From: Patiria pectinifera
Taxonomy: Eukaryota > Echinodermata > Asteroidea > Valvatida > Asterinidae
Direction: 5' to 3'
Assembly: GCA_029964075.1 (NCBI GenBank)
Contig: CM057141.1
Span: forward strand, 8,432,001-8,496,000
DNA length: 64,000 nucleotides
Shown: positions 14,101 through 48,600 of the stretch, piece by piece
How the letters are laid out: each line of letters starts with the position of its first letter
How positions within the stretch are numbered: position 1 is the stretch's first letter
Notes under the pieces: model-generated
What the model saw: only the letters and a program-made list of their open reading frames with translations
Databases searched by the model: none
What the model was told of the DNA's origin: nothing
Program-made: the position numbers and the translations under genes

Positions 14101-17100
14101 TGCAAACTCAGCGGAAGATTCTTCTGCACAGGAAATTAAATGGACTTTCAATTGCAAGACGCCAGGCAAAGCCTTATACATGTAATATTAAAGCATAGTA
14201 AATGGAACTGAAAACAAATTATGTGGCAGTACTTAAAATCAACAAAAAACTTGGATGAAAGTTTACTTTTTAGGATAACATTATAGGGATGTATATAATT
14301 TATTGACATAACAGAGAAGTTAAGATTGCTTAAACAAGAAAACCAGATGTTTATGGTGCTGAACCTGGTGGATTTTCTGTCCTAGTAATACTTTTTTGTA
14401 TTACTATGTAGTGACTGACTTCTATTTTTTTGTTTCAAACTTGAACAAAACAATTGACGAGCTGGGTTTGAACCTGCAACCCCCGGACTATTGTTCCGGG
14501 GCTCTACCAACTGAGCTAACCAGCCCTATTTTGACAGATCCTCAATTTGTCAACGTCTTTGTAAAAGGGGCGCAATTCAGAAGCCAAATAAATTTAGGTG
14601 TTAGTTTTGGATTGAGTTTATTTATTTGCTTGAAGCCAAGACATAAAGGTACCGATAGAAAGACCATTGTACCGGTAAGTTTGAATTCAATAGGAGGGGT
14701 ATGAGTGAATGGGAGGTTTGTGGTAGCACCATGTGAATTAAATCTCTTAGTGAGTTGTGGTTCTGAGAAGAACCAGTATGCTATTGCTCGGCATCAGGCA
14801 TATTCTGATGATGACATAATTGCTGTACATTTACTTCATTTTACCCAGACTGATGAATATGCTGGGTGAATATTTTGTTGCACTCAGTGTTGCTAGGTGT
14901 ACCATAACATTAACAACAGAGCAGAAAGTTACAATTCATATCAAAAAACAAAACAAAAACAAAAACTAGAAAATATATTAAACTGTTTGTACAAAGTTAT
15001 TCTGTTTTGAATATATTATGTCAGCCTTTCAGCGTCTGACCAAACATGTATTGTCAGTCTCTGGGTATTTGAATGTTTTGTGAGACAAAGAGCTTCTTGA
15101 CTTTGTAAAAAAAAAGAAACAATTGGCAGATTGGTGGCAAGACACATACATGTAATAGTAACACAATCATCGTACATGGTACATGTGTGTATTGGACAGG
15201 TCTCTGACTGGAAATATTCATTGGCAATTGCAAATTCCACATGGTACAACAAAATTTGAAGGAGGAATCGTCATTTTTTACGTTAAAAAAATATACCGTA
15301 AATAATATCAGATGATAACATTGAGAAATAAATATCGAAAATTGATACCTTTCTGGCCGGGCCAGCCTAGCCCGTGCTGCACCGGTGGACTAAGATCAAA
15401 TTTATTGAAAAAGCTACAGACCAGGTTCCATTTTATCTGAGCATGACTGAAGCACTAAAACCGCACTTTGTGGCAAAAATTGATGATTGTTGTTTCCGGA
15501 ACAAACAGAATACCAAAGTCATCAGGTTTTTTTATTTTCAGCAACTAATTGTAACGTCAAATACCCAACTTTTTGATCGCAACTTTCTTTAACAAAAATT
15601 AGCAAGTTGCCGACATTTTATCTGTTTTAGGAGTTTTACATCATTTCTGTAATAAATTCGTTATGAAAATTATATGGTGACGTTGAAGAACTTATTTTCA
15701 AAAAAGGAAACAGTGGAAACGCTGGTAAATTGTTCTGACCAAAGAATACCCGTAGACCGCAAATGGTGTGGTCCACACTGTGCGTGACACTTTGGTGACA
15801 TGTCTGGTGTACGTGTTCATCTTTTCAAACCATGGACGAAAAATACCAGAGAACAAAAGAGAACAATATCGTCCACGATTCCAAGCATACCGGTACGTCC
15901 GCGATTGGGGTCATGTACAAAATCTATGGGAGTCCTCCTATGGGAGTACAAACAAAAGAGGGACAATGGGACGTCCACGATCGACGGTGAACACACGTTT
16001 GGGTGGATCGCATTGGCAAGTGCTTTTCATAGTGAATGCATATGTGCGTACGTACGTTTGTATGAAGGGCATCATGCAGTACCTACCAAGGAGAACCGTT
16101 TATTTCAAAAGAGTCACTGATCGCTGCAGTAGTACAGTGGTGCAATTTAAGCGTAACGTTTATTTCCGAAAGCGTAGTGGGTGCTGGTGCTAGTGCCTGG
16201 CTAGAACACTGGACTCACTTCGAGTGTGGAAAATGGTTAAGTTTGTTGCAAATAATTGCAAATAGTACTTATTTAAGATTATCAACTAGCGAAATGGCAA
16301 TAAAATGTTTCGCCTAAGGTGTTGAAGCCAAGTATGTGCAAGGGTCACTGTGCTTAAATCCAGACTGACAAGTTGATAAATAATTTGAAATCATTTTTAA
16401 GAAAACTATCTGGAATGAACTGAATGAATTGAATTTTCAATAATTTTCAAAACATTAGGCAAATAGAAATGGGTCAGTAATTGTTTAAGATAGGGATAAT
16501 CTTAGCCATGTTTGAAGTGTGTGGTAGGCTACAGGTGGATAAAGACAAATTAAAAATGTTCCTCAAATGACCTGAGATAACCAGATTTGGTCTTGGCACT
16601 GTCACAATCAAGCATTAGTTAAAGATGTGCATACATGTATATTTTCCCGGCCATTTTGGAAGATTGGCTTAAAAACATGAAAAATGGTGGAAAGTGGGTC
16701 CAAGCAAGCCCCACATAATACGTGTATTATTCAAACAATCATGATAATATGTCAGTGTAATACATTTTGTTTCAGATCCCTGATTGGTGCTGGAATGAGT
16801 CAATTCAAGTCTGACACTTTGAAGTTTGATATTCCTTTCTTTCAGAGGTTTCGCAATCCTGAAGACAGGTGAGATACAGGTATAATAGAATAATGAATAC
16901 TCAAAAGCAATCAACCTTCATTCCAAGATATGCAGAAAACATTTACATATGTTAACAAAATAAAAATAATACAGGTCTGATTTATTCTCCCAACTAAGCT
17001 AATAAGAAAGTTTAAAACTTATGTACACAGTAAAAGTAGTCATTGGGTCACCATCATGTATGCAGATTCTCCAATGGTCTTTAAATGTTTGGGAAAAAAT

Positions 17101-20100: not shown

Positions 20101-23100
20101 CGCTTTTTTTGACTCACCCTGTAGCTTCAATGCTTTAGCACTCATTTTCTTAGGAAACCTATCACAAAAGAATGAAATACAATTTGTTTGAGTTAATAAA
20201 AATTGAAATCCAGCTACTTACAGCTATTCATATTTTTTTTCAGGAGAAACTTCATTTCAGCAGGTGCTGCAGCCGGTGTAGCTTCTGCTTTTGGTGCTCC
20301 TGTTGGAGGTCTCCTATTTGCCATGGAAGAGGTGTCATCTTTCTGGAGTATGAAACTATCGTGGCAGGTCTTCTTCTGTTGTATGGTTTCTACTTTTACC
20401 ACTGACCTGTTCAACTCTGCGTTTCACAATTTCAAGTATCAAGGCCAATTCGGTCTTTTCAAAACACAAAGTTACATTATATTTAAGGTGAGTGAAAGAG
20501 TACTTTAAAGGCAATTTTATCCCAATTTACAGTGTATGAACAAAATGCAAGTAGAGCTGTCCCTTTCCATACCATCTCCGGTTTGTGCATGTATGTCTTC
20601 CTACTTTATTCCTGTCTACATTCTAAATGCAATTTGCCATCATTTAAGTAATATTTTAATTGAAATAAGATAACACCATGATTTGGACCTGTCAATGACA
20701 CTGGGTCGTTTATTTTTAAATTTATTGCTTTAACTAATTATGTCATATTCATTACCACTATTTTTCCTTCTGCCTACAATAGACATTGTGAGGGAACTGT
20801 TGTTGATACTGTGCATGCAAACACTGGTTTGTATGCACACACAGTTTTCTAAGTATGAACAACTCATTGTCGACCAAGTGTGCACAAAATCAAAAGTAGT
20901 TTTCAAATAAGAGAAGCAAATGGTGAAAATGATACTCAAGTACCCTTCAATAAAACTTGAATTTTACTGCTGAGCTCATGGGTACACATGGAGTATGTAT
21001 TTCTCTTGTCATCTTAGAGTGCTGCTGATTGCAACATGTTTGGGTGTCAGCCATTGTACTGACGTCATCTTCAAGTGCTGCTGATTGCAATGGGTTTCGG
21101 TGACAGTCACTGCACTGATGTCATCTTCAAGTGCTGCTGATTGCAATATAATAGGTTTGGGTGTCAGCCATTATACTGATGTCATCTTCAAGTGCTGCCG
21201 ATTGCAATGGGTTTGGGTGTCAGCCATTGTTACTGATGTCATCTTCAAGTGCTGCTGATTGCAATGGGTTTCGGTGCCAGTCACTACACTGATGTCATCT
21301 TCAAGTGCTGCTGATTGCAATATAGGTTTGGGTGTCAGCCATTGTACTGATGTCATCTTGAAGTGCTGCCGATTGCAATGGGTTTGGGTATCAGTCACTG
21401 CACTGATGTCATTGCTGATTGCAATATAAAAGGTTTGGGTGTCAGCCATTGTACTGATGTCATCTTCAAGTGCTGCTGATTGCAATATGTTTGGGTGTCA
21501 GCCATTGCACTGATGTCATCTTCAAGTGCTGCTGATTGCAGTATAGATTTGGGTGTCAGTCATTGCACTGATGTCATCTTCAACTGCTGCCGATTGCAAT
21601 GGGTTTGGGTGTCAGTCACTGCACTGATGTCATCTTCAAGTGCTGCTGATTGCAATGGGTTTGGGTGTCAGTCACTGCACTGATGTCATCTTCAAGTGCT
21701 GCTGATTGCAATATAATAGGTTTTGGTTCCAGTCATTGTACTGATGTCATCTTCAACTGCTGCTGATTTCAATGGGTTTAGGTGTCAGTCATGGCACTGA
21801 TGTCATCTTCAAGTGCTGCTGATTGCAATGGGTTTGGGTATCAGTCACTGCACGGATGTCATTGCTGATTGCAATATAATAGGTTTGGGTGTCAGCCATT
21901 GTTCTGACGTCATCTTCAAGTGCTGCCGATTGCAATATGTTTGGGTGTCAGCCATTGTACTGATGTCATCTTCAAGTGCTGCTGATTGCAATGGGTTTCG
22001 GTGCCAGTCACTACACTGATGTCATCTTCAAGTTCTGCTGATTGCAGTATAGGTTTGGGTGTCAGTCATTGCACTGATGTCATCTTCAACTGCTGCCGAT
22101 TGCAATGGGTTTGGGTGTCAGTCACTGCACTGATGTCATCTTCAAGTGTTGCTGATTGCAATATAATAGGTTTGGGTGTCAGCCATTGCACTGATGTCAT
22201 CTTCAAGTGGTGCCGATTGCAATATGTTTGGGTGTCAGCCATTGTACTGATGTCATCTTCAAGTGCTGCTGATTGCAATGGGTTTCGGTGCCAGTCACTA
22301 CACTGATGTCATCTTCAAGTTCTGCTGATTGCAGTATAGGTTTGGGTGTCAGCCATTGTACTGATGTCATCTTCAAGTGCTGCCGATTGCAATGGGTTTC
22401 GGTGCCAGTCACTACACTGAAGTCATCTTCAAGTGCTGCCGATTGCAATGGGTTTGGGTGTCAGTCACTGCACTGATGTCATCTTCAAGTGCTGCCGATT
22501 GCAATGGGTTTGGGTGTCAGTCACTGCACTGATGTCATCTTCAAGTGCTGCTGATTGCAATATAATAGGTTTTGGTGCCAGTCATTGCACTGACGTCATC
22601 TTCAAGTGCTGCTGATTGCAATGGGTTTGGGTGTCAGTCACTGCACTGATGTCATCTTCAAGTGCTGCTGATTGCAATGGGTTTTGGTGACAGTCACTGC
22701 ACTGATGTCATTGCTGATTGCAATATAATAGGTTTGGGTGTCAGTCATTGCACTGATGTCATCTTCAACTGCTGCTGATTTCAATGGATTTGGGTGTCAT
22801 TCATTGTACTGATGTCATCTTCAAGTGCTGCCGATTGCAATTGGTTTCGGTGCCAGTCACTACACTGATGTCATCTTCAAGTGCTGCTGATTGCAATATA
22901 ATAGGTTTTGGTGCCAGTCATTGCACTGACGTCATCTTCAAGTGCTGCCGATTGCAATGGGTTTGGGTGTCAGTCACTGCACTGATGTCATCTTCAAGTG
23001 CTGCTGATTGCAATGTGTTTGGGTATCAGTCACTGCACTGATGTCATTGCTGATTGCAATATATTAGGTTTGGGTGTCAGTCATTGCACTGATGTCATCT

Positions 23101-26100
23101 TCAACTGCTGCTGATTTCAATGGATTTGGGTGTCATTCATTGTACTGATGTCATCTTCAAGTGCTGCCGATTGCAATGGGTTTGGGTGTCAGTCACTGCA
23201 CTGATGTCATCTTCAAGTGCTGCTGATTGCAATATAATAGGTTTGGGTGTCAGCCATTGTACTGATGTCATCTTCAACTGCTGCTGATTTCAATGGATTT
23301 GGGTGTCAGTCACTGCACTGATGTCATCTTCAAGTGCTGCTGATTGCAATGGGTTTGGGTGTCAGTCACTGCACTGATGTCATCTTCAAGTGCTGCTGAT
23401 TGCAATATAATAGGTTTTGGTTCCAGTCATTGTACTGATGTCATCTTCAACTGCTGCTGATTTCAATGGGTTTGGGTGTCAGTCATGGCACTGATGTCAT
23501 CTTCAAGTGCTGCTGATTGCAATGGGTTTGGGTATCAGTCACTGCACGGATGTCATTGCTGATTGCAATATAATAGGTTTGGGTGTCAGCCATTGCACTA
23601 ATGTCATCTTCAAGTGCTGCTGATTGCAATGGGTTTCGGTGCCAGTCACTACACTAATGTCATCTTCAAGTGCTGCTGATTGCAATATAATAGGCTTGGG
23701 TGTCAGTCATTGCACTGATGTCATCTTCAAGTGCTGCTGATTGCAATATAATAGGCTTGGGTATCAGTCACTGCACTGATGTCATTGTTGATTGCAATAT
23801 AATAGGTTTGGGTGTCAGCCATTGCACTAATGTCATCTTCAAGTGCTGCTGATTTCAATGGATTTGGGTGTCAGTCATTGTACTGATGTCATCTTCAACT
23901 GCTGCTGATTTTGATGGATTTGAGTGTCAGTCATGGCACTGATGTCATCTTCAACTGCTGCTGATTGCAATGGGTTTGGGTATCAGTCACTGCACTGATG
24001 TCATTGCTGATTGCAATATAATAGGTTTGGGTGTCAGCCATTTTACTAATGTCATCTTCAAGTGCTGCTGATTGCAATGGGTTTTGGTGCCAGTCACTAC
24101 ACTAATGTCATCTTCAAGTGCTGTTGATTGCAATATAATAGGCTTGGGTGTCAGTCATTGCACTGATGTCATCTTCAAGTGCTTCTGATTTTAATGGATT
24201 TGGGTGTCAGTCACTGTATTGATGTCATCTTCAACTGCTGCTGATTTCAATGGATTTGAGTGTCAGTCACTGCACTGATGTCATCTTCAAGTGCTGCTGA
24301 TTTCAATGGATTTGGGTGTCAGTCACTGCACTGATGTCGTCTTCAAGTGTTGCTGATTTCAATGGATTTGGGTGTCAGTCACTGTATTGATGTCATCTTC
24401 AACTGCTGCTGATTTCAATGGATTTGAGTGTCAGTCATGGCACTGATGTCATCTTCAGGTGCTGCTGATTGCAATGGGTTTTGGTGTCAGTCATTGTACT
24501 GATGTCATCTTCAAGTGCTGCTGATTGCAATAAGTTAAGGTGTCAGTCACTGTACTGATGTAATCTTCAAGTGCTGCTGTTTGCAATGGATTTGGGTGTC
24601 AGTCATGGCACTGATGTCATTTTCAAGTGCTACTGAGGCAAAAAAAAAAAATGGTGTGACCGACCGACCTGGAATTTTTTCGGCCAAATTGCCGACCTCA
24701 AACTTTTTATTGCCATTTTGAAGGTTGATATTGATCATTTTTAATGAACAAATTTCAAAAATTTCAAGTACTTTTAATTATTTGCCATGAACATAGACCA
24801 TTTTCCACACTAAAACTGACCATGATTTGACACAAACATACCTGTGTTAAATGTGCGAAAATCGCGACGATCTCAAAACTTGAATTCTCAAACTACATGA
24901 AGTACGATTATTTTTGCACAAATGCATCGGGGTGAACTGGTGCGCCTGGCCGACGGACGGCAGGGTTCTCCCCACGTACAAATGTGCGTACTGCGAATCC
25001 GCCCGACAAAAGTGCGGATCACATTTTTCAGCCCCTGATACGCACAATATAATTATTATTCACGCCATTAAAATGCACAATATAATCGATACATAACGCC
25101 ATTATTTCATCTTGACATGCAAAATCTTGACAAAAATCCTGTTTTTCTGATGCATGTGGGATGTGTGATCAAAATGCACACGATGACTGGTTCTGTCGAC
25201 TGCCAGCTGACAGGCATGCAGCGCATACAGCATGGTGCACTGGTTCCCTTTGCGTGCTAATGGAATCAATACTATAATGAAGGACCGGAACCAGTGACTA
25301 CTGCCTATACAAACGTCGTAACACGATGATGTTGTGCCGTCGGCCGAAGTTGGATCGTAAACATACCAAACAAACATCGATGGAGAAAGAGAATTTCTGC
25401 GAATTAATTCACAGAACGTGATCTTTATTTTCTGTGTATGTGTTTTCCATTAAAATGACGAGATTGCCAAGCTCGAACTCGTGGCATAACATCGGAGCAT
25501 GTTTCTGCAGTAGTGTAAGATTTTCGGCCACGTGGGATGGGCCGTTCACCATGTACAAAGTGCAGTAATGCACACTGATACTGGGCCGTGAGCCCCCTTC
25601 GCGAAGTACGGCCGGCCAAACTGAATGTCGGCGGCGCCAGCGGCCGTGATGTATGTTAAGCATATAGTGGAATCACCCACCTCAAAAATATTTTTTATTA
25701 GTTGAGGCAAGTTTTAATCACTTTTGGTGGCCAGTCTTGATAATTTTCGTGGCGCAAATGAAAATAATCCAGGCACAAAATAAACATGATTCCTTGCTCT
25801 ATGATGCTCCATTAATCAGCACCCCCAAAAAATTGGCGAAATAATTTTTCTGACCTATTGACGCTATTTTGAAAGGCATGTAATTGGAAGCAAAAGGATT
25901 TTTTTCTTCACCTTAATTTCTTAATTTGAAACTTACTTGTAAATGTAATTTTGATTTTTTTCTTATAATTACAAAAATAGGGGCCTACAAGATCTCTCAA
26001 AAATTTTCGGGGCCCTTAAAAAGCGGGCCCCCGAACCCCACGCCATGGCTTCGCAGGTTGTTGAATCACAGCTAAACTTCCCCCACAGGTTTGAAACAAA

Positions 26101-29100
26101 TCCCGGGGAGAACCCTGGGACGGTACGAATTAATTTGGATTGAAATGTATCGATTGAGTATCTTGAATGCTCGAATAATGTTTTTATACAAATATTTTGC
26201 GAAAGAACACGCATGAGCCTGCAGAACTGAAATTAAAAAAAAAAAATACAAAATAAAATTATTTCCCTACCTACCTTACTGGATTTTTTTCAGACCGTTA
26301 ACGTAAACACACCATTTTTTGGGGGGGGGGGCCTGATTGCAATAGGTTTGGGTGTCAGTCATTGTACTGATGCTATCTTTTTGAAGTGTTGCATTTGTGA
26401 TAAGTAGTTACTTGCTGTTTATGGCTTTTCAGTTTATCTTTGACATCTTTTTTAGCAGTCATGTAAATAGGTATCAATTTGAGCACATCCTTATCTGTCA
26501 ATAGTGTTATATATATTTTTTACTTTATAGGTTCTTGAAAGTCTTGATGTGAATATACTCATGTTTATTCCGACGGTTGTGCTGGGAGTACTTGGCGGTT
26601 TGCTTGGAGGATTGTTTGTGTTCATGAACTTGAAACTAGCAAGGCTTAGACGGGCTATCATATCCAAGGTCAAACAACATTGGAAAAAGAAAGCCCTTAA
26701 GATCGTTGAACCCTGCCTTATCATAGTAAGTATCTTTTATCAACATTAACCATCTCCTTGTTTCTTTTCACATCTTTGTGTAATTTTTGTTGTATGTGAT
26801 TCCATTGATATCATCATTTTCGATTATTGATTATTAGATCATCTAACATCAATAGAAATCAATATACATCAACTTTCCTTTCATTGTATTAACATTCAAA
26901 TCGTGGACCTTGACACTTGCAAACGTCGCGTACTGACGGTGTAGCATATTGAGATTGCTTTGTGAGCATGCACAATAGCAAGGTCAACTGTTTTGGTCAA
27001 GTGGTGAATTATTAATGAGCTTTGTCCTCGTACGTGTGCGTGTGCACTCATTCACTTGCAAATTATATTGCAATATTCTTGCATATCGGTTGTGCCTATG
27101 TGTAAACAGAAATGCAACATGTCAAATTATGCACCAAATCGTAGAAAAGACTTAAAACTTCATCCACAAAATGTATTTCATGAATAAATTCCTAAAAAGT
27201 ACACCAAGCTAAAAAAGACGAACATAATACTTACCTAAAAATGGCAATTTGGACCAAAAATGCACAATAAAATTCAAGTATGCACCGAGAAAAATGCTGA
27301 TGACGCAGTACAAAAGTATCAAATTTTGATGCTGTTAAAAAGGAATCTGTAGTATTGATTGTAGACAATGGGAAAATGATGTTGCAATACATCATGTGAC
27401 CGTAATGAGAAGCTTGGAAACTAGGCGAATCTATGCATTGGTTTCTCCATAACAGTGTGACATCACTGTTGGCTTATTTGCATAATGTAGGCCTTTGTGA
27501 GTGAATTCTGATAGCGATATTTGATAGTGCATGAACAATGGAGGACAATAGGGCCAACGATTGACCTAAGGTCCTTTTTTGAGGTGTGGTACAAAACCTA
27601 CGGGAGGTCTTCCGAAAAAGAGGTCTTCTGAGTATAAACAAAAGAGTGACAAGAGGGGGTCCGTGATAGTCTGAGTATCACCCGTTATCCACGTAGCCAA
27701 TCTCCTGTATAACGGCTGATATGTCTAGAGATGCAGATATATGCAAGCCATACGCCAGCCAATCGGAGTCGCTTTTACTAAATCATGACGTCATTTCATT
27801 CCTAAATCAGGACTACATGGTTTAATTGGTCAATTCAAATGCAGTGTCTTGTAATACAGCAACAGCCGGCCGGGTGTGATGTCGCATAACATGATACAGA
27901 GCATGTGACACATTTTTTTATGTCCATTGTCTATGACGCGCAATGGGTGAATGCCCGAAGACCCGATATAGACAGCTGATTGGTCAAAATCTAGGAGGTC
28001 AAGAGGCGGGGTCTTGCCTAATAAATCAGCGAATACCAAATAGTTCTTCACATTGACTCTGAGTTTTCTAGGTTTTGACTGATGGCATTCTCCAGGGTAC
28101 TTCATCTTCAATCAGACAACATTAGGGGATCATTAAATGTCATGCTTACTTTGTGACTTTATATAAACTGCCTGTCCTTCGTTATTTACGTAACACTTTA
28201 AAAAGCAATATCCACGACATTTTTTAAAATACAAAACCAGTTATATTCTTTGTAGGTGAGGATATTTGTTCAAAGTTGAGAGACCAATATCCTAGTTTTA
28301 TTACATGTATTAAAACTCAAAGGACTTTTCAAATGTCACACTTTTGGGCCCATTATTGTGGAATTGCCCCAATACACATCAAAATTGGTCAAGTGAATGT
28401 TAGAATCTTGGGAAAAATATTTGAATATGATTGAAGGATCTAAACAAAATGATATGCTATATACATATAAAAGTGGAGATGCTGTGTAGCACTGTGGAGC
28501 ATATATGACAAGAAGTACAAGTTTTAACTGTGCTCACAGGAAAAATATTCCCGACCTTTCGGTGCAGTGCACCTTCTTCAGGGGACTATGGCTTGTTGTC
28601 TGGTAGAACAAATGCGGTGAAGTCCTCTTTCATCCCGTCAGGTTGGAGTGTACCAAGTTGGAACATCACACGCTGTTCCAAGGATTGGCGCTGCGTGTCT
28701 GACGATGCCGTGGTAACGATGCACACGCCCATGTCCTTGGTAGAGTGTGTTGGCGCTCTGAAGTGTTGCGCGACAGCCCGGCCAGGTTGTTTAAGCCAAT
28801 CTACGGAGATGCTCCATCAAGCGATCGGCCAGACGACGCTTGGTTTCGCCAATGTAAAGCTTACCAAAGCATTTACATGTGATGCAATAGACAAGATTCG
28901 TTGTCGTGCACTTGAAGTGGCCACTGATGCTGAAATGGCCATAGGGTCCAGTGTTGGACGATGTCTTATCAACATGGACACATGTCTTGCATCTATGACG
29001 ATGGCAGGGAACAGTTCTGTAGGGGCCATTGTCTATAGTACTTGTGATGTTAGGAAGAGTAGAATGCACCAGATGGTTGTTGATGGATCAATTCCGTCTG

Positions 29101-30612
29101 AAGGAACATAGGGGGGTTGTGGATTGGTCAAAGATGGCGCTTGTTGAATTGATGAATGCCTGAACATCTTCCTTGGTGACAGGTGTCACACCAATGATGT
29201 CGTCAATGTACCGTTTGTACAACAATGGTTGAACTGGACATCATCTTCTCCTCGAGAAAGCCAACAAATAGACATGCATAGCTCGGGCCCATACGTGTGC
29301 CCATAGCAACGTCAGTGGTCTGCGGGTACTGCTTCCCAATAAAGATGAAGTTGTTCAGGGTGAGGACAAGTTCAGCAAGCCTGAGAAGGGTACTGGTTGG
29401 GGGGTCACAGTCTTGACGGCGGTCAAGAAAATGACGTAGCGCTGCTAAGTCGTCTGAGTGGGGGATGCATGTGTACAAAGACTTGACGTCCATACTGTAC
29501 AGGTACAATGTAGTTAGATGGGCACGTGAATTCAAAGTTAGTGAAGGTATGGAGAGCCTCATTAGTGTCCTTCACATACGAGGGCAGCTGGTTGACAATA
29601 GGAAACAACACGGAGTCCAAGTACTTGGAAATCAACTCAGTGGGGCAATTGCAAGCTGAAACAATGGCCGGCCAGGATTATCTTACATGTGAATTTTGGG
29701 CAGCATATACAAAACGGCGGTTCTGGGATACGGGGTGATGAGTTTAGTCGCATTACCGGGTTGCTCACGATGCTCTGGTGCATAGGGGTGAGGTCATGGT
29801 CGATCACGTAGTAGCTCAAGGAATCTAAAAGTCGGCGTTCAGCCTCTAGCTGATACAAATCTTTATGCCAAACCACAGTAGCACCCCCTTTATCAGCTCT
29901 TTTGACAACATAGTTCTTTCTTCCTTGAGCGATCGCAAGGCCTGCCGTTCCACAGAGGAGATATTGGATTTGGTGCAGCGGGTTTAAAGTTGATACGATT
30001 GACACGATTGACATCAGAGCCACAATTGTCAATGACTCAGTCGAGGACTTGTTGAGGCCGGTAAGTGGACACCAGCTAGATGATTTGGGGACTAGTCTGT
30101 CAATGGTACTGGCAGTAGGGGTATCATCATGATGAGAAACAGATGAAGAACTCACCTCTTTGTCATGGAAGTAGGCTTTAAGGCCGGGACGTCGATAGAA
30201 CATATCAATATCTCGTCGAGTAGAAAAGTAATTTTTTTGAGGTTGGGAGGGACAAAATTCAACCCCCACTAAAGGACAGATAGTTGTGTCAGTTAAGGGT
30301 AGATCAGAGGGGATGGTAACAATGTTCCTTGCCAGAAAATGGATGCGAAGATCATTGGTGGGTTGGATGGAATCTGGGCCCATGGACTGCAGTTTTCTGT
30401 TCTTGACGGCACTTAACTCTTCGTGCAGCTCAGAATTGAGGTTGTGAATAATTCCACGAATCAAATTGGCCTGTTGGCCCGTAGTAATGGAATACAGTTG
30501 TTGACGAGCACTACTAAACTTATACCAGTGCTCACCGGAAAATGACTCCCACCGGTATAATTTTTACTTCTTGTTATTTATGCTCCACAGTGATACGCAG
30601 CATCTCCACTTC

Positions 30613-30657
<45 letters not shown>

Positions 30658-33600
30658 CCAATGAAATCGTCTTCTATCACAATTCACAGTGCTCGATACA
30701 TCTCTGTAGAGCTATAACATGCAATAAATTCAGAATATGAGTTAAACAAACTTTGGCATATCTCTCTTCTGGACAGACTGTTTCGTACCATAAGGCACTC
30801 ATCAGCAGAATGACGAAAAATAGAATACAAGTAGCATCTTACCTTATTTCGAATCAAGCGCGCGCACGCGTTACGCGCGTTACGTCATTGAAGTTAGTAC
30901 GCGTTTACATCACTGAAGTAAGAACACATCTGTCTCGATGCCTGCACTTGGAGACGATTTCGCTTCTCTTATTCAGTGTACCTAGATCTGGCCTACATAT
31001 GATTATGTACTTCTCTGCTATACACAAATTGCATCTCTTGTTTACGTTAGAGTATGGCAGTGCTTTCAGAACAATGTCCCATTTGATTTCATAGTCTTTC
31101 CCCTCGTCCTTTAAGTCCCATATATGTTTACGTAGCTCTTTTCCACAGGTTGAATCCCGTCGCGCTTATGACTTTACCGACGATTCTGTCGAGGATCACT
31201 TTACTTATATGTCCTATCTCTGATTTAGTTGGGCTGATTAGTCGACATGATGGTTTGTTATCGAAGTTGTCCTTGTGGTCCTTCAAAGTAACGAAGACTT
31301 CCCTCTCGGCCAATTTATCTATGCGGTCGCCCAGTCCAAGACTTTTAGCAATTCTTTTCGCTTCGCGATTGATTTCCGCTACTTCCTTTTGCTCGGTTTT
31401 CTTGTATGTTTTGGTGACATTTGCCCTGACAAGATTTACATAGTCATCTTTTTCCATCTTGTAATAATTTGTAGTCTTATCAGCCTTGACGGTAAGCTTA
31501 TCATCGTTCCTAATCGTATTTATGTCTTCGTTCAATTTGCGTTGGAACTGGCTAGTGGTCTTCTCAAATACGTTGCCTTCATGTTCGGATCGTTGCCTTC
31601 ATGTTCGGCATGCAGCTGTACGATAACTTTACTGTGTACGATAACTTTACTGATAGAAGACGATTTCATTGGATATATATATATATATATATATATATAC
31701 ATGCAATAAATTCAGAATATGAGTTAAACAAACTTTGGCATATCTCTCTTCTGGACAGACTGTTTATATACATATTTATGCAACAAATTCAGAATATGAG
31801 CTAATCATTGTGATAGAAGACGATTTCATTAGATATACATGTTTAAATGGATTTTGTAAGGTCTTTAAATTAAGCAAGGAATTTTTACCCAGTTATAATT
31901 AATGACGAGGTCAAAAATCTTGGCTCGAGACATAGTTCACATCAAGATTGCCTAATGTCAAATGATTTCAATTTCTTCATAGATTTTATTTTCTACTGCA
32001 AGTGTTCTGCTGCCTGCTGCATTCAATTGTAGCCCTTACTCGTGCTACCTAAGTGGAGAAAAACGATCGTAAGTTGTACCTGATTACACTGCCTTGGCCA
32101 GCATTTCTTAAATTATTGGATTTTAAAGAGGTTGTTGAATGCTCGAAGACATTTCCGTCATTTTTCGGGTATATGTAGCCTAAGGTGTGATGAAATAAAA
32201 ACGACTATTGTGTCTGTCATGAAATGAGTACAAAGGTACTTTTGAGAGCTGTTTTCAGGTCCTGTTTCGACCCGAACGTGCAATTTGTGTAAAAGTCGTC
32301 GTTGGGGGCAGCAAACACAGCATAGTAAATTGTGACGTAATAAACAGGACTCCTGATGCAGCGTAGTATAAACGAGTCCTGTTTATTACGTCACGATTTA
32401 CTATGTTTTGTTTGCTGCCACCAACGACGACTTTTACACAAATTGCACGTTCGGGTCGAAACAGGACCTAAAAAAACAGCTCTCAAAAGTACCTTAGGCT
32501 ACATATTCCCGAAAAATGACGGAAATGTCTTCAAGCATTCCACAACCTCTTTAACCCACCAACTCTGAATGTGACAATTTTACCCAAAAAAAATAAAATG
32601 AGAAAATTACCTTTGTTTTATTCTCAATGTGGTATTTTTAACATTTTGAACAAATATAAATGATTGTAATTATTATTTTTTTCCAAAAGCAGTATTTTGC
32701 GTAATGCCAAATAAAAGGACTTACTATTTTGTTTCCTGATTTTGATTTAATTCAAAAGCACAACCCGTATTCCGGACGTATCTCTGGTATTCGACCCAAT
32801 CACATGCACACAGGAGTGCTGAGCACTTACACATGATGGAGCCAGCTACTGTGGCTCATCTGGTCTGACATAATCACGGAATGGCCGCATTACGTTCTGG
32901 ATCCTGTGTTGTACAGAAGGCTTATACATGTATATGGATGTGGCATTCCCTAACGTGGCGCACTTCGCTATTTCCCCGACTTCCCTTATGCAGTGTTGCC
33001 AAACCTCTTAGTTGACAAGCTTCAAAGTAATTCAGACAGATACGGGTAATATAACCTCAACAATGCTTTCTGTTGAACCCTCATGAATAATTTTAGTGTC
33101 ATGAATAAAGTCTGAAATTAAAAAAAAGAAAAATTGGCGTCCGGAATTTGGGCACAAAATCGGCCGAGTATTCCCTAACGAGGTGCACAAGAAGAAATCT
33201 CAGAAACTCCCAAGTAAACATGTCATAACTTCTTGTTAGTTGACAAAGACTGATAAACCATTATTGTCTCAACTATCCAACTAAATACATGCTGGTCAGA
33301 AAATCATTTTCTTATTTTGATGCCTTTTAAAAGGGTTCACTGCGTACTTCAAAATAAAACCGGAAAAGCGTGCCAGAGTAATATTTATCTCTTGACTTTG
33401 TAGGGGAAAGGTAAACTCAAAACTTAGGAACGGGAATGTTTAGAGATTGGTAAAGTTTCATGTTTAATATGAAATTTGAGGTATTGTAACTTTTGCTATA
33501 GCAAAGCACTACAGGCAGAAAATCAATGTGCTTCACATTTGGGGCTGTGCCGCCATGCGTTTTATATACCATAGGGGACATTACATGCATACAAGTGTTG

Positions 33601-36600
33601 TGTTTTTACCAAAAAAAATTGTAACTTTCAAGTTGTATATTTAATTTTATTCCATCCTCCGACCCTGCAAAAATTAATATCATGTTCCTAATTCAATAAA
33701 TGAAAAAAATGCTGGCCTTAGTTATATACATTTTACTAATACACATCCCAGTTCCAAAGAAAGGGGACCTCACCATCCCAGACAACTACCGGGGAATCAG
33801 CCTCTCTCAAACTGCTGCCAAGGTATACAATCGACTACTTCTGAATCGCATTCGTCCGGAAGTTGAGAAGATACTCCATCCCAATCAAAGTGGCTTTCGG
33901 TCTCTACGTTCAACCTCTTCTCAAATCCTTGCCCTCAGGCGCCTTATTGAGGAAATTCGTAACCACCAGAAGGAAGCCGCCATCATGATTTCCGCAAAGC
34001 ATTTGACTCTGTTGACAGACCAACAATGTTTAAGATCCTGCATGCTTACGGTATCCCGTAGGATACCATTGCCATCAAAAGTATGTATGAAGATACAAGT
34101 GCTGTTGTTCTCACTCCCAAAGGTGAATCTGATCCGTTCTCCGTCAACACTGGAGTTCTTCAGGGTGATCCTCTTGCCCCCTACCTTTTCATCATAGTTC
34201 TGGATTATGCCTTGCGGACAGCATTAAATGTCACTGATGGTCTCACTCTCTCACGCCGTAGGAGTAGTAGACACCCTGCCCAATGCCTATCCGACCTACA
34301 TTATGCAGATGACTTTAGTCTGCTTGCTGACACCCTCCTTGATGCCGAATCTCTCCTCCATAAAGTAGAAGCTTGCTGCAAGTCCGTTGGTCTCTCTCTT
34401 AATGCAAGGAAGACCAAGTACACGGTCATCAACCCATCTACCTCTGACGATGTCACTGCACTGGATGGCAGTAAGCTTGATAAAGTTGATGACTTCAAGT
34501 ATCTGGGCTCCTACACCAACACAGCTCATGACGTCAAGTGTAGAAAAGCTCAAGCTTGGTCTGCTCTGTTCTCACTGACAAAAGTCTGGAGATCCTCGAC
34601 CACCAAACTTAAGATCTTCAAGACCTCAATAGAATTTATCCTCCTCTATGGTTGCGAGTCCTGGACCCTGACCAAACAGATCTCTGCATCCATTGATGTC
34701 ACCTATACACGGATGTTGCGGGCTGTTCAGAACGTTTCTTGGCAACAACATCTCCCTAACTCTATTCTGCATGGTGCCCTTCCCCCTATCTCCACCATCA
34801 TCAGACAGCGTCGCCTTCGGCTAGCCAGTCACGTTTATCGACATAATGAGCCAGTTAGTCAAGTTCTCCTCTGGAATCCTGAAGCCCCTCAATGAAAAGG
34901 TTGTCCCAACATGACCCTGAAAACATCCATCGAGCTAGAAACTGGTCTGAGTGGTCCATCTCTTTCCAACACTATGCTCGACAGGGACAGTTGGGCCCAA
35001 CTCATCAAGTCATCATGAAAATGAATGAATGAAGAAGAAGAAGAATACACATACATTTTCTTTCCTCGGTCTGCTATAACCCATAGAATGCTTTGCCCCT
35101 GCCAACAATACATGTATGTTATTGATATGGATTTTGATGGGGGAAAAAACACTGAATTCTCTCTGCACTACGTTATACAAACAAAATGTAGTTTGAGGGT
35201 GGATAGTCAATATTAGTTCCCCGAGGTACTGGAAGTTTGCCTAGGGAACTAGTTTGTCAACTTCCAATACTGAGGGGAGCTAATATCAAGTATCCACCCG
35301 AAATTAATCATATTTGTTTTAGTTTACCTCATACATATTTAGTTGCCAAATTTTTCCATTGCAGGAGCTTGTCCAGCTCACCAGAGGAATATTGCTCAAC
35401 CTCAGAAAAGTTCAGTTCTTGTGCAGTACAGTAACTCCTAATACAGTGTAGTTGATACCACATTGTGGACAACGTTTTTACCCCTCAGCCGAGAGGCTCG
35501 AGGGGTATTGTCATCGCCTACGGCGTCCGTCCGTATGTCCGTAGGTTCTGACCATACCACCCTTGTGGGGTGATGTTCCTTTCAGGACACATCACCCCAC
35601 TTTTTTCACAATAGAAAAACATCACCCCAGAAGAGAATCTTTAGAAAAAGGGATAATGGGAACACAATGCTATCACCCCACAATTCCGTCTGGCTGGAAT
35701 GTATGGCCGTCCGTCAGGGCGTCCATCTGTCCGGGCAGCTTAGATTCCGGATGATAACTTGAGTTAGAAATGTTGTTTGGGATTGTAACATCGGTAGGGG
35801 GTTGCCCTTGGGAGTAGGCAAGTTGGGATTGGTTTTGAGGTGAAAAGGTCAAAGGTCAAGGTCACCGTGGTGAGTTAAATGTAAATGGTTTCCAGATGAT
35901 AACTTGAGTTAGAAATGAGATTTTGGTGTCTAACTTTGGTAGGGGGTTGCCCTTGGGAGTAGGCAGGTTGGGATTGGTTTTGAGGTCAAAAGGGTAAAGG
36001 TCAAGATCACTGTGGTGAGTTAAAGGTAAATGGTTTCCGGATGATAACTTCAGTTAGAAATGAGATTTTGGTGTCTAACTTCGGTAGGGGGTTGCTTTTG
36101 GGAGTAGGCAAGTTGGGATTGGTCAAAAGGTCAAAGGTCAAGGTCACCGTGGTGAGTTAAAGGTAAATGGTTTCCGGATGATAACTTGAGTTAGAAATGA
36201 GATTTTGGTGTCTAACTTCGGTAGGGGGGTTGCCTTTGGGAGTAGGCAAGTTGGAATTGGTTTTGAGGTCAAAAGGTCAAAGGTCAAGGTCACCATGTTG
36301 AGTTGAAGGTTATTGGTTTCCGGATGATACCATGACTCTGGCTGAGGGGTTTCAACAGCAACGCTGTTATTTTTGCAGACTGCTACTGTCCACAATATTC
36401 TCCAGTTCGTAGAAAATGCTAATAACATTTACGTGTGCCCCCATCTTATCATCTGTAGCTACAGCGATGTTTGCACATGCGTAATACACTTGTGCAACAG
36501 TTCCATGATTGCTTCGTAAAGCTCATGCATAGTAGACTATTACACGGGTAAACTACACATGCACATTTACCCTGTGCATGAATTCTTGCCGGCGCATTTG

Positions 36601-42600: not shown

Positions 42601-45600
42601 TGTCAACATGCAAACTATATGTTAACCCTAACTCCCTACTGTCTTTTACTAAGTACTGGACCAAGTCCACCAAAATCCATCAATCACATTGCTTTCAATG
42701 CATGCTTTGCTTTAGGCCCAAGTCCATCGTACTCCATCAATATTTAGTCACACCAGGCCTGTAGGACCAAGTCCCCCAAAATCCACCAAAATGGAGGGAT
42801 GGATTTTGATGGAGTTGGGGTGGTTAGGGTTAAAGTAAACATCGATGGAGAAAGAAGATTTCTGCAAGTTAGTTCACAGAACTTGATCTCTCTTGTCTGT
42901 GTATGTATTTTCCGTGTTCATGAATTTATTTCGAAGTTGTATCGGCAGTTTTAGCTGTATAGGCTTCTTCTGGCAAGTTAGGCCTATTCATCAATTTGAA
43001 AATACTGAGTTTGGAATGAAAATACAGAGTCTACTTCATTCACTTACCCAAATAGCTACTACATATGCATATTTATTCAGCCGACAGGCTCAAACGCTAA
43101 AAGATTTAATCAACCACCGAGCGCCCTCTCGGGGCCTACCCATTATGCTACGTCATGAATCCGCCATTATACTTCCTCTTTTTTCTTAGCGACGGCATCG
43201 TGCAGAAGCAAATATTTTTGCTCTCGCCTTTTGACGAGTTTTTGTACGATTTTCGCTTTAAGAGTTTCTGTTTTATAGAATTTATCAACCAAGTGAGTTG
43301 TGTAGAATCTGTAGAGTTTGGTTTGAGTTAAGTAGTTCTCATTTGGAGTGATTTTGGAGTCATTTTGCTTTCGTTTTTCTTGCACGTAACGTAGCAGGTT
43401 TTTCAGCCTTTGTCTGACGCCACGTGCGGCGGGCCAGGTCGGCACCGCGGTGCCGGGTAGGCATCGTGGGTTCTTCTCCTGGGATCAAGTATCCATTTTA
43501 GCCGAGTCGGCTTTTCTGAGTTCTTTTTATTATTTCTTTTGTACAGTTATCTAATAATAATATTTCTTTGTAAAAAAAAAAAAAAAAAAGTGCATTTAGT
43601 TTATGACTCCATAGAAATACGTAAAGACCTTTAGGGGAGACAGTGCGTCGTATATCCCCGGAGAGAAGTGCGGTTATTCTCCACAAGGTCTGCTAGTCGC
43701 CCCACAAGTCAGACTTTCGGCCGTTCAGGGACTAGCGAAACGTTTCGAAGAATATAGCGGTTTCGGCCGTTTAGCGAGACGAGTACAGTGGGGGTATATC
43801 GACAGAGGTCGTTCCAGAAGAGGACGTTTCGTTGGGTATATCGACAGAGGTCGTTCCCTGCCCCTCGCCGTCCTAAGCTATCTCGGTAGTGCGGTGACAA
43901 ACGAGATAGCGGCGAGATATTCGTGGGTATATCGGCCGCTGGCCGTTCACTTCCAACGACCAGCGGTCGTTCCTTCCCCTCGGCCGTTCTCAACTGCATA
44001 CATCTCAGTAGTACGAAAAAGACGAGATAGCAGTGAGTCCCCACGCAGGGATATCGCCGTAGTCTGTAACGGTCATCCCGTGTTACGCGTTTTTGACCGG
44101 CATCAGACATACGTCCTACGGTATGGAACACCGTGAGGATACCGAACCACGGCCCCCAGGCGACCAGCCGTAAGGGTTCCGCGGTTAAAAAGGCCGCATC
44201 AAAGGCCACCGGCGTTCCCAAGGGTAAGACCGGGACCAATAGTCGTCGATCACGCCTCCGGTCTCCGGACCATCGGCGTCACTCTAGCAACCCGGCGTCG
44301 ATTTCCCGTGGTTTCACGAGGTCTGCTGGCTCCAGCAACCCTCGGGGACGACCAGTCACGGAGCGGTAAAGGATTCAATCCTCACCGGCCCCGTCTGCGC
44401 GTTCATCGCGCTCCGAGTTTCCTACTTCCACCCCTGCGGAATCTGCAGGACTCGCGGTGACTGACTTGCCTCCACACGCAGTCAACATCATTCTTTGATC
44501 AATGCTCCGGAATTCCCAGGATATTATCGGAGTTTTCATCCAGTGAATCAAGTCACCCAAGCAAGAAAAGTAAGTCGACGCATCGGAAAAAGAAAAACAA
44601 AGGTGTATCCACAGAAATCTTTCTAAAAGCTTTCCAGGACATCAACGTTTCGCTGGCAGCCCTCACTAAACAACAACAATGGAGATCGGCCCCAACGGCG
44701 GTGACTCAGAGGTCACCCCGGGATTTCGGGCGGGATGAGAGGGAACACACTGGGCCCCCAGATCCTGGGGTTACCATCAGTGTCTGCTCAGATAATCCAC
44801 CAATTTCCTTGCACCCATCTATGAATTTGGGAACTTCTATTCAAGATGCTCCTGACATAGATGTCGATGATACTCACTCCCCTTCCACTCACTCACAAGA
44901 TGAGCGCTCTGGGGATGATGAGGCCACTGACCCTGGCAATTTTTCACCATTCGAGACTCAGCTGAGGCTGGTTCAAAGAAACCTCGGGATCCAGCTCAGC
45001 CTATTTCAGAAAAGGACCGAAATGATTTCTTTACGGTTCCTTCTATTCGGATGACAAATTGACTGGAGATAGCGGCAAAGCCCCGACCAATTCAATATTT
45101 GTCGATAAGACTAGAGCAAAGATGGAGGATACAATGAAGAAGGTCGATGAGGCGGCTAGATTTGGCTCACAAACAAGCGCCTTTACTTCTGTTATCTGAA
45201 TATATCGTCTGCGCATGTGAGGAAGATTCACAAATTCCAGCCGATATGTTAGCAGCAGCCTTCCGATGTCTGGACGAAATACTCCGTTTCTCTCTAGACC
45301 AATTTACGAGAATCTCTCTCCTGTCTGCCAAGTCGCGTAGGACTAACGTGATGGATGCACTGTACATACCACACGAAGGCGCTAAGAAGAAGTTAGAAGA
45401 TCTTCCTCTTATGGGCAAAGACCTTTTCGGAGGCAAATTCCAGGAAGTTCTGGAAGTTGAGGCCAAACGAATGGAGACAGCAGACAAACTGAGCTTGAAG
45501 AAGCCCTCAGCCACTAACAAGCCCAAGTTCTCTGGGAAGAAGGCATGCCCTTAAGAAACCGTAACAGACGGCCAAGGCATCAGCTGGTGCAATGGTTTCA

Positions 45601-48600
45601 GCTCCACGCCCATACTCTGCCCCTGCACGCTGGGCAATCCGCCCCGCTCTGGGTGGCGGCAGCCCTGGAGAGAGATCACCTCCGACGCATGGGTGCTTTC
45701 TATAGTCAGCCACGGCTATCAACTAGAATTTACAAGCACCCCTCCGTCGGAAATATGTGTTCGCGAAACACCGGTTCCGGCAAACACAGACAAACGATTA
45801 GCTCTCGAGCAAGAGATCTCATCCCTCATCGAGAAGTGGTGCCACCAATGGAGCAGTTCACAGGCTTCCTGTCCTCCTTCTTTCTAACACCAAAGAAGGC
45901 GGCGGATAATCAATCTGAAACCGCTCAACAAGTTTGTCAGACCCAAACGTTTCCGAATGGAAAATCTCCATGTAGTTCTAGAGTCATTACCCACACCAGC
46001 GTGGGAGCGTCATTAGACCTAAAGCGTACCTACACATCCCCATCTTCCAAGAGCACTCCCGATTCCGTTTTTCGGTATCAGGAGCGCACTTACGAGTTCA
46101 CTGCCCTTCCCTTCGGGCTATCAACCTCGCCAAGAGTGTTCACCAGGGTTGTGCGGGCAGTTGCATCACGTCTCCGGAGAAAACATAATGATTTTTATGT
46201 ATCTCGACGACTGGCTGATAGTGGGAAAATCAGAAGGCCAGACTGCTCAGAATTTGAGGGATACTTATACGTTGACAACGAGGCTAGGCTTCATCATCAA
46301 CGAAAAGAAGTCCCTAATCCGTCCCAGGAAATCACTTTCCTGGGAGCAGAGATCGATTTACGCAGGGAACGTGTTACCAGCCTGCGGAAGTGCGTCAAAC
46401 TTTTCCTATCCGTTCAAGTCGCTCCAGCCCGAGCTTGGCTGAAACTTCTAGGGTTCATGGCCAGCTTAGTGGACCTGGTTCCATGGTGCAGACTGAGGAT
46501 GCGTCCTTTACAAATGCATCTTCTGGCACATTACAGACCAAAGACAGATCCGATCTCCTTTTGGTCTCGATCGACGATGTCATTCGGCCACACCTTCGGT
46601 GGTGGCTATTGGAACAGAACATTCGGTGCGGACGGAGCTTCCCCAGAGGGGATCCTCACGTCATAATTTCACCGGCGCCTCCAACGAGGTGCAGGCACTT
46701 GGGACGACAACACTCGGTCCCTACATATCAATGTTCTAGAACTCCAGGCTGTAGTCAATGCCCTACACCACTTTCAAGCAGGGTCTGTTCTAATCAAGAC
46801 CGACAACACGACAGTGGTAGCATATATCAACAAACAGGGCGGTACAAGATCACCCCAGTTGTGCAACTTGGGAAATGTTTCAGTGGCTAATCAGACACAA
46901 AGTCGATCTACATGCCATTCACATTCCTGGTGCGGAAAACGACATAGCGGACTCTCTCTCCAGGGGCAAAGTAGTTCCCACAGAGTGGTCATTGAACAGG
47001 AGGATCGCGTCAGATCTTCTCGATCCTAGGTCGTCCACACATAGACCTGTTCGCCTCAGCGGTCAACACTCAGCTCCCGGTGTTCTGCTCGAGAGCCCAT
47101 CATCCTCATGCATGGGCCTCGGACGCACTATCAATAGACTGGACAAACATGTTAAACACCGCCTTCCTCAATCTCAATCCTTACAAAGGTCATCGGGAAA
47201 CTGGAGAGAGACAGGTGCAAGATCCTGCTCAGCCCTGGTTTCCGCGACTGGTGAGGCTCCTGGCTCCCCTCTAATCCTCCCAGATCGTCACGACCTACTC
47301 GTTCAATCTCAGTCCCGGTTCCGACACCCATCTCCGGGAGATCTCCACTTAGCGTGCTGGCCACTGTCAAGTGTGCCTACCGAGCAGCAGGTCTTTCTGA
47401 AGACGCTGCAACTCTGGCCGCAAAGGGACGTCGTCTCTCAACACGACAAATCTATGACAGTCGACTACGACATTATAGTAGGTGGTGCACAGAACAGGCT
47501 GTGGATCCGCTCTGTGCTTCTTTAAGCCATTGTTCAGAATTCCTACTGTCAGAGCCAATTTGTCAGTAGGAACGATACGAAATTATCGATCAGCCATAGC
47601 AGCGGTTCACAAGGGCTTCGCTGATGGCTCATCTATCTCCTCTAATGTGGCAATCACTAACCTACATCCTGGGATCTAGGTCAGGTCCTGAACATGTTGG
47701 CCAAGGCTCCATACGAGCCCTTGGGCCAAGCACCCCTCATTAATGTATCTATAAAGTTGGCCTTCCTGCTCGCAGCGGCTACCGCTAGGCGGAGCAGCGA
47801 GATCCATGCGCTGACTTTAGATTCGGGACATATCCGCTGGGAACCAGGTGGGGTTCGCCTGATCCCAAAGGCGTCCTTCCTGACGAAAAATCAGACGGCA
47901 AGTTTCAGCCCTCCTGATATTTTCCTCCCAAAAATAGAGTCGACCTCCTCTATTCCCTCAGAAAATTATGGTGCCCGGCTCTAAAAAAATGTATCTGGCA
48001 CGCACCAAGTCACTCAGGGATAAATGCATGCAGCTCTTTATTACAACCATAAAGCCACATGGCCCCGCCTCAAGGGACACCATTGCGCGTTGTAGTAGCT
48101 AGCTATATCAGTCGCTAATGCGGACTGGCCATCAAAAAAAAGGGACGCTTCTGTCAGGCCTTGTCGAGCATGACGTGCGCGCTGTAGCGGCGTCCTGGGC
48201 ATTTTTAGGGGGTCCCTATCTCAGAGATCTCTCAAGCAGCATGCTGGAAGTCTGCCACGACATTCACATCCTGCTACCTACGTGACGTACTCCAGACTGG
48301 AGGGAACACGGGAAGACGGTACTGACACAACACCAGTCCTCGTCTACGAACCCTACCCTGCGCAGTAGTCCTTCCCGGCCTGACCAGGAGACTAACTAAG
48401 CAGGTAATACATTTACATGTATATTCAATCTAAATGGTCTAAATCATTATGTATATATATCTATATACTGTTGTTTAACCATTTGATTGCAGGGCGTCTC
48501 GCCTACCCAGCCACCGGTTGTCTGTGCCACTCTATGCATATGTAGTAGCTATTTGGGTAAGTGAATGAAGTAGACTCCCCCACAGAAGTGTGGGACGTCG

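Follow-up and report, generated by a model that had tools for sequence, protein, structure and literature searches.

Does a 46-nt segment on the minus strand of a 64-kb stretch of Patiria pectinifera DNA (the window) encode a hammerhead ribozyme (HHR) of a Penelope-like element (PLE), and does its cut leave a mark on how copies of the element begin and end? The original prediction placed a complete hammerhead fold in the terminal repeat of such an element. Minimal PLE hammerheads were reportedly described by Cervera and de la Pena (2014) and by Lunse, Weinberg and Breaker (2017). Passages in three papers (PMC6155905, PMC7761336, PMC7229834) treat the pseudo-LTRs of PLEs as an established place of minimal type I HHRs. 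The segment concerned was as follows.

30766..30811, minus strand: predicted minimal type I HHR, called from the sequence, Rfam, a fold descriptor and sister copies, with the cut 3' of C30772

The minus strand from 30811 to 30766 reads ATTCTGCTGATGAGTGCCTTATGGTACGAAACAGTCTGTC, followed after the cut by CAGAAG, and is laid out as ATTCTG-CTGATGA-GTGCC-TTAT-GGTAC-GAA-ACA(GTC)TGT-C/CAGAAG (slash, predicted cut). Helix I is formed by TTCTG/CAGAA (5 bp), helix II has 5 bp including one G-U and a UUAU loop, and helix III consists of 3 bp with a GTC loop in the monomer or of 4+4 bp around a U.U mismatch in the dimer. The ends lie in stem I, helix II has several pairs and helix III is short. The cut-site triplet is GUC, and cleavage is predicted after its last base, C30772. 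The invariant core (CUGANGA ... GAA ... UH at the cut) was present by sequence and by descriptor.

Rfam was used to score the segment against known families. RF00163 (Hammerhead_1) aligned over model positions 1-45 of 45 with an E-value of 6.8e-5 in 2.5 kb and of 0.0017 in the whole window against 4227 families, the lowest E among the seven Rfam matches listed for the window, yet with 30.4 bits it fell short of the gathering score of 34. Nowhere in the window did any Rfam family reach its own gathering score. The HHR is therefore not filed under RF00163. The original prediction had named the lack of a covariance-model hit above threshold as evidence against itself, and read strictly this is what was found, because 30.4 is below 34; we retained the hammerhead call because of the E-value, the shuffles and the sister copies. 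The core pattern CTGANGA..GAAA..TC had 10 matches in the window versus 3.95 expected by chance and is by itself not diagnostic, but the whole fold is. The strict descriptor (core, helices I and II of at least 5 bp, helix III of at least 3 bp, UH) and the relaxed descriptor (helix minima of 4, 4 and 1 bp) both found the HHR as the sole site in the window, with 0 and 1 matches respectively in 1000 dinucleotide shuffles. That hammerhead pieces happen to coincide in a repeat, as the sub-threshold score and the common core pattern might suggest, is thus most improbable and already disfavoured, given the E-value over all families, the absence of the whole fold from the shuffles and a position in a PLE repeat, where minimal HHRs have been reported in passages of PMC6155905 and PMC7761336.

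Computed energies were compared for the monomer and the dimer. Helices I and II alone gave -8.0 kcal/mol, while the most stable fold of the 46-mer reached -11.9 kcal/mol, and the HHR as a monomer is predicted to prefer another fold and to compete poorly. The double-hammerhead dimer reached -27.3 kcal/mol. It is 3.5 kcal/mol more stable than two separate monomers, each in its best fold (-23.8 in total), and 1.0 kcal/mol less stable than the best dimer (-28.3). These values fit the dimer action stated for PLE hammerheads in part of a review (PMC7761336). The HHR resembles the known minimal PLE hammerheads, as partly described in PMC6155905 and PMC7761336, in its pseudo-LTR place, very short helix III, expected dimer action and many copies per genome. 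Unlike in those descriptions, helix III is here a 4-nt palindrome around one U instead of being absent, the sequence is family-specific, and the copies are split between C17 and U17.

The element around the HHR was delineated from repeats within the window and from sister copies, among them L023.

30717..30783, minus strand: pseudo-LTR part, the downstream 67-bp direct repeat, starting inside the ribozyme and 100% identical to 31699-31765
31699..31765, minus strand: upstream 67-bp repeat, a 5'-truncated copy starting 12 nt 5' of the cut, with the short 3' end and then (TA)n
30655..30716, minus strand: long 3' extension ("tail") of 62 nt, ending at CATTGGATA before (TA)n; the extension is found in 24 of 48 copies
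30619..30657, no strand: (TA)n target or boundary array (repeat annotation)
30905..31142, minus strand: C-terminal part of the element ORF after a deletion junction, matching F759 onward in sister copies (ORF 30905-31165)
31138..31572, minus strand: N-terminal part of the element ORF, presumably reverse transcriptase (RT), 98% identical to L023 3551-3985 inside that longer sister copy (ORF 31128-31598)
31587..31637, minus strand: displaced ORF piece, 98% identical to L023 4867-4917; sister copies have this piece before the C-terminal part
31651..31702, plus strand: inverted long-tail fragment plus (TA)n, facing the ORF-bearing copy head-to-head
31778..31848, no strand: older head-to-head mini-insertion, inverted tail 31807-31848 (86%) and forward pseudo-LTR 31778-31807 (90%)

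The direct repeats 30717-30783 and 31699-31765 flank both ORF parts, which are now joined with the middle of the ORF missing between them, and an 18-bp duplication (31571-31588/31591-31608) adjoins the displaced piece. The stretch from 31848 to 30620 is best read as three nested insertions: one made up of 31778-31848 (tail inverted, fragment forward), one of the forward fragment 31699-31765, and one in which the ORF-bearing copy and the inverted tail at 31651-31702 face each other head-to-head. With direct pseudo-LTRs, an optional tail, head-to-head inverted copies and an AT-rich target, the host appears to be a rearranged, internally deleted PLE, and the window copy, lacking the ORF middle, cannot move alone. 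The N-terminal part is putatively RT, and its tentative assignment to PLE reverse transcriptases is by the motifs LKDHK in the window copy and YRDDG in L023. Pfam returned no confident match for the proteins of the ribozyme element in the window and sister copies: the window ORF parts had no relevant match and none to RT; L023:1772-2542(-) had a weak RVT_1 match (E=0.066), with YRDD seen by eye; and L023:1392-2450(+) had a GIY-YIG-like motif by eye only, without a Pfam GIY-YIG match. A PDB search gave weak unrelated matches only (E of 0.049 and above) for 31128-31598 and no match for L023:1772-2542. No relative was found for the protein piece 31128-31598 in IMG/VR, GTDB contigs or phage records or for 30905-31165 in IMG/VR, and the ribozyme DNA pattern had no match in IMG/VR. 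The placement of a minimal hammerhead within the terminal repeat of a PLE is supported by Rfam, the descriptor, the identical 67-bp repeats and the sister copies.

The element had been predicted to lie in a chloride transporter intron. Two ClC exons were located upstream on the plus strand, one at about 20242-20475 with ClC-6 and ClC-7 as the best PDB matches, the other of ClC type by eye at 26531-26725. A motif scan located no downstream ClC exon, leaving the intron not closed on the far side; the element probably lies in an intron of a gene for a ClC-6/7-type chloride/proton exchanger. The two exons are separated by a large tandem array at 21007-24636 (56-bp unit, 64.4 copies, TRF). A second PLE adjoins the (TA)n edge of the ribozyme element.

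28458..30624, minus strand: second, different PLE directly downstream, with 75-nt inverted repeats (84%), separate from the ribozyme element

This second PLE has an ORF at 29637-30563 and a GIY-YIG part, with stops; Pfam scored GIY-YIG at 20.0 bits (E=8.4e-4), below the cut-off of 22.6. Its end, at about 28538-28585 on the minus strand, has a hammerhead-like motif, CTGAAGA-A-GGTGC-ACT-GCACC-GAAA-GGTC, with TCCC/GGGA around it. The motif (28540-28581) has an extra A before helix II, was missed by Rfam and by the descriptor, and is kept as a lead only. Elsewhere in the window, a long hairpin at 32305-32421 is probably an inverted-repeat transposon fragment, its Rfam miRNA matches being far below threshold; a reverse transcriptase in two frames, LINE-like by eye, lies at 33700-34895 (+; RVT_1, E=1.1e-10 and 9.3e-14); ORFs at 44461-47984 (+) look by eye like a DIRS-type retroelement; and a histone 3' stem-loop match at 14737-14779 (-) fell short of its gathering score of 34 with 26.9 bits (E=0.0021).

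The copy had been thought specific to this locus, which it is not. The genome assembly (613.5 Mb, 1020 contigs) was searched with 30700-30900, which gave at least 45 matches including the window's (40 of 212 candidates scored), and 34 fetched loci cover the 44 other matches listed. The 3' half of the repeat occurred in 45 copies in these loci and the window, and 42 of them were preceded by the ribozyme 5' half (L010, where this half is damaged, included), in a set of copies that share ancestry and were chosen by similarity to a ribozyme-containing query. By a pattern allowing up to 6 substitutions, 44 HHRs were found. Over 56 nt, 14 (the window's included) were identical to the window's, another 14 differed by C17 to T alone, so that 28 of 44 were identical or C17-only, and 16 were singletons. 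The copies were too alike to show covariation in the helices (44 HHRs; 11 rows aligned).

The NUH rule tolerates C, U and A at position 17, and GUU is probably cleaved more slowly. The base at position 17, directly 5' of the cut, was C in 24, T in 19, A in 1 and G in 0 of the 44 HHRs, a spectrum that fits the rule. Substitutions were counted over 47 aligned pieces from the 34 loci, with P values that treat related copies as independent and are indicative only. Without C17, the HHR had 16 substitutions in 1851 sites versus 232 in 12164 in the flanks (P=8.6e-4), or versus 196 in 12128 once one window-private site was left out of the flanks (P=0.014). Helix III with its loop had 0 in 387 (P=0.005), and the core positions alone had 4 in 387, which was not significant (P=0.26). 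The five lowest-rate 44-nt windows listed start at E1081-1085 (E, the reverse complement of 30600-31900, with the cut after E1129) and correspond to the HHR up to but without C17. A 44-nt HHR window including C17 was ordinary, with 245 of 346 windows lower; the low substitution rate of the HHR depends on leaving C17 out.

The copies end at two positions. In 24 copies the 3' end is short, after TTGCATGT, and in 24 others it is long, after the 62-nt extension. The 12 nt beyond the 3' end were 90% AT (24 short and 23 long ends; L021, a row without the long-end motif, was left out) versus 60% AT over the 34 loci. Head-to-head pairs with 3' ends outward were found in at least 8 of the 34 loci (L015, L018, L019, L022, L025, L027, L035 and L042), the window has two such pairs, and L009 and L010 have copies tail-to-tail. 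L023 and L028, both with the long end, continue into sequence leading to the ORF, so that an ORF end is followed by the ribozyme, the repeat and then the next ORF.

Animal type I HHRs often occur in retrozymes, small elements of short tandem repeats with circular RNA, as passages of PMC7229834 describe, and we considered whether the HHR belongs to one of these and not to the PLE. Direct tandem HHRs 166 and 167 nt apart were seen in L013 and L026; direct pairs less than 600 nt apart occurred in these 2 of the 34 loci only. However, in both the two copies are joined across (TA)n, the second beginning at E1092 or E1084, which fits one copy having inserted into another's (TA)n end. Moreover, the HHR lacks a stable helix III and is contiguous with the element ORF parts in sister copies. 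A retrozyme origin is therefore very unlikely.

The ends and pairs of a PLE have precedents. Inverted copies of Adineta vaga Penelope elements are, according to a passage of PMC3846280, most often seen head-to-head. The present element is like the endonuclease-containing Penelope elements described there in its direct and inverted pseudo-LTRs, optional tail and head-to-head junctions; the word hammerhead occurs 0 times in the main text of that paper. PAc, a Poseidon element of Anolis, has an HHR, internal RT initiation at two sites and both-strand extension, according to parts of Frangieh 2024 (PMC11167929). From the same parts, PAc is like the present element in having its HHR where two units meet, a pair of 3' initiation sites (the tail) and an AT-rich target; its two sites match the two 3' ends found here, and its both-strand extension would explain the inverted pairs. 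In contrast, the PAc HHR overlaps the ORF start (PMC11167929, in part), whereas here the nearest L023-matched ORF piece begins about 420 nt downstream of the cut. Parts of that paper also state that the PAc HHR is inactive without protein, that its cleavage was shown in vitro with protein, that HHR mutants did not affect insertion in vitro, and that no RNA-seq reads start or end at the HHR cut; cleavage of the present HHR is predicted from sequence.

If cleavage made the RNA 5' ends of transposed copies, copies should begin at the cut, and the upstream repeat near 31750 had been cited in that sense. It does begin in the cut-site half, but at A31765, the second base of GAAA, which lies 12 nt 5' of the cut, and a start at the cut was rejected; the shared 67-bp repeat begins at A30783/A31765. 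The window locus thus shows no RNA 5' end made by self-cleavage. In the sister copies, 26 starts from E777 to E1184 were scored from BLAST edges, which place the 16 earlier ones. Tail starts (window E1218 and E1222), internal gaps (L032 E993 and L042 E976), copies past E759 and copies without a BLAST-length piece were dropped. We found that two copies begin at the cut, directly against AT-rich sequence, one in L042 at E1130 (+1) and one in L009 at E1131 (+2). The former, L042:4319-4373, is a short insertion that runs to the short 3' end, and the latter, L009:2535-2651, one that runs to the long 3' end. Three other AT-rich-joined starts, near E1084, E1092 and E1118, fall inside or beside the ribozyme, and a further five of the ten late starts join other sequence, mostly another copy. 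Starts within one base of the cut numbered 2 of 26 versus 0.19 expected (nominal P 0.016, for a one-base window chosen after seeing the data). The corresponding figures were 2 of 26 within two bases (P=0.040), 1 of 26 exactly at +1 (P=0.062) and 2 of the 10 late starts at the cut (P=0.034), in a set where copies without the ribozyme 5' half were found only as neighbours of matches. These counts are suggestive of a cut that sometimes sets where new copies begin.

The HHR might instead be an inactive relic, carried along in a young element, with cleavage having no part in transposition. Copies mostly 95-99% alike need no selection for its retention, GUC and GUU are about equally common, in vitro PLE insertion was independent of HHR cleavage in the PAc work (PMC11167929, in part), and 24 of the 26 scored starts lie away from the cut. 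Against this, substitutions outside C17 are about half as frequent in the HHR as in the flanks, the sole common polymorphism of the HHR is at a position that tolerates C, U and A, and two copies do start at the cut. On balance we regard a relic as rather unlikely.

We think instead that the HHR is a PLE hammerhead that still works or did so until recently and can cut tandem RNA into units, and we are confident, short of certainty, that a minimal type I HHR in a PLE pseudo-LTR, cutting tandem RNA, together with an internal RT start at two sites, gives the whole explanation. In tandem copies one ORF ends before the HHR and the next begins after it, as the order in L023 and L028 shows. In read-through or tandem RNA, two HHRs would pair their palindromic helix III strands (ACAG-U-CUGU) into a double hammerhead. 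We infer that this dimer would act by cutting 3' of C17, which would separate the units and leave CAGAAG as the 5' end of the downstream RNA; any role of that cleavage in transposition is likewise inferred. The short and long 3' ends would arise from the element RT beginning to copy inside the RNA at either of two sites separated by about 62 nt. Priming would take place at AT-rich, often (TA)n, targets, and priming from both strands would give the head-to-head copies. The optional tail and the inverted pairs are established from earlier descriptions, as far as passages of PMC3846280 and PMC11167929 go, as is the minimal PLE hammerhead from the papers named at the outset, and what is particular here is the PLE family itself, its C17/U17 split and its short insertions keeping both ends.

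It is possible, though rather unlikely, that HHR cleavage is active in the host germ line and determines the 5' terminus of a fraction of the transposed RNA. A share of new insertions would then extend from the cut to an internal RT start, as the short ones in L042 and L009 may do. Titles and abstracts in the open-licence literature gave no account of insertions beginning at a PLE hammerhead cut, though one may be in print. The family in Patiria pectinifera has many near-alike copies, including short fragments with both ends kept, so that the role of the cut can be addressed by counting copy starts relative to it among CAGAAGAGAGATATGCCAAAG copies. If true, germ-line cleavage would give the PLE hammerhead an in vivo role, which a passage of a review calls a mystery (PMC7761336).
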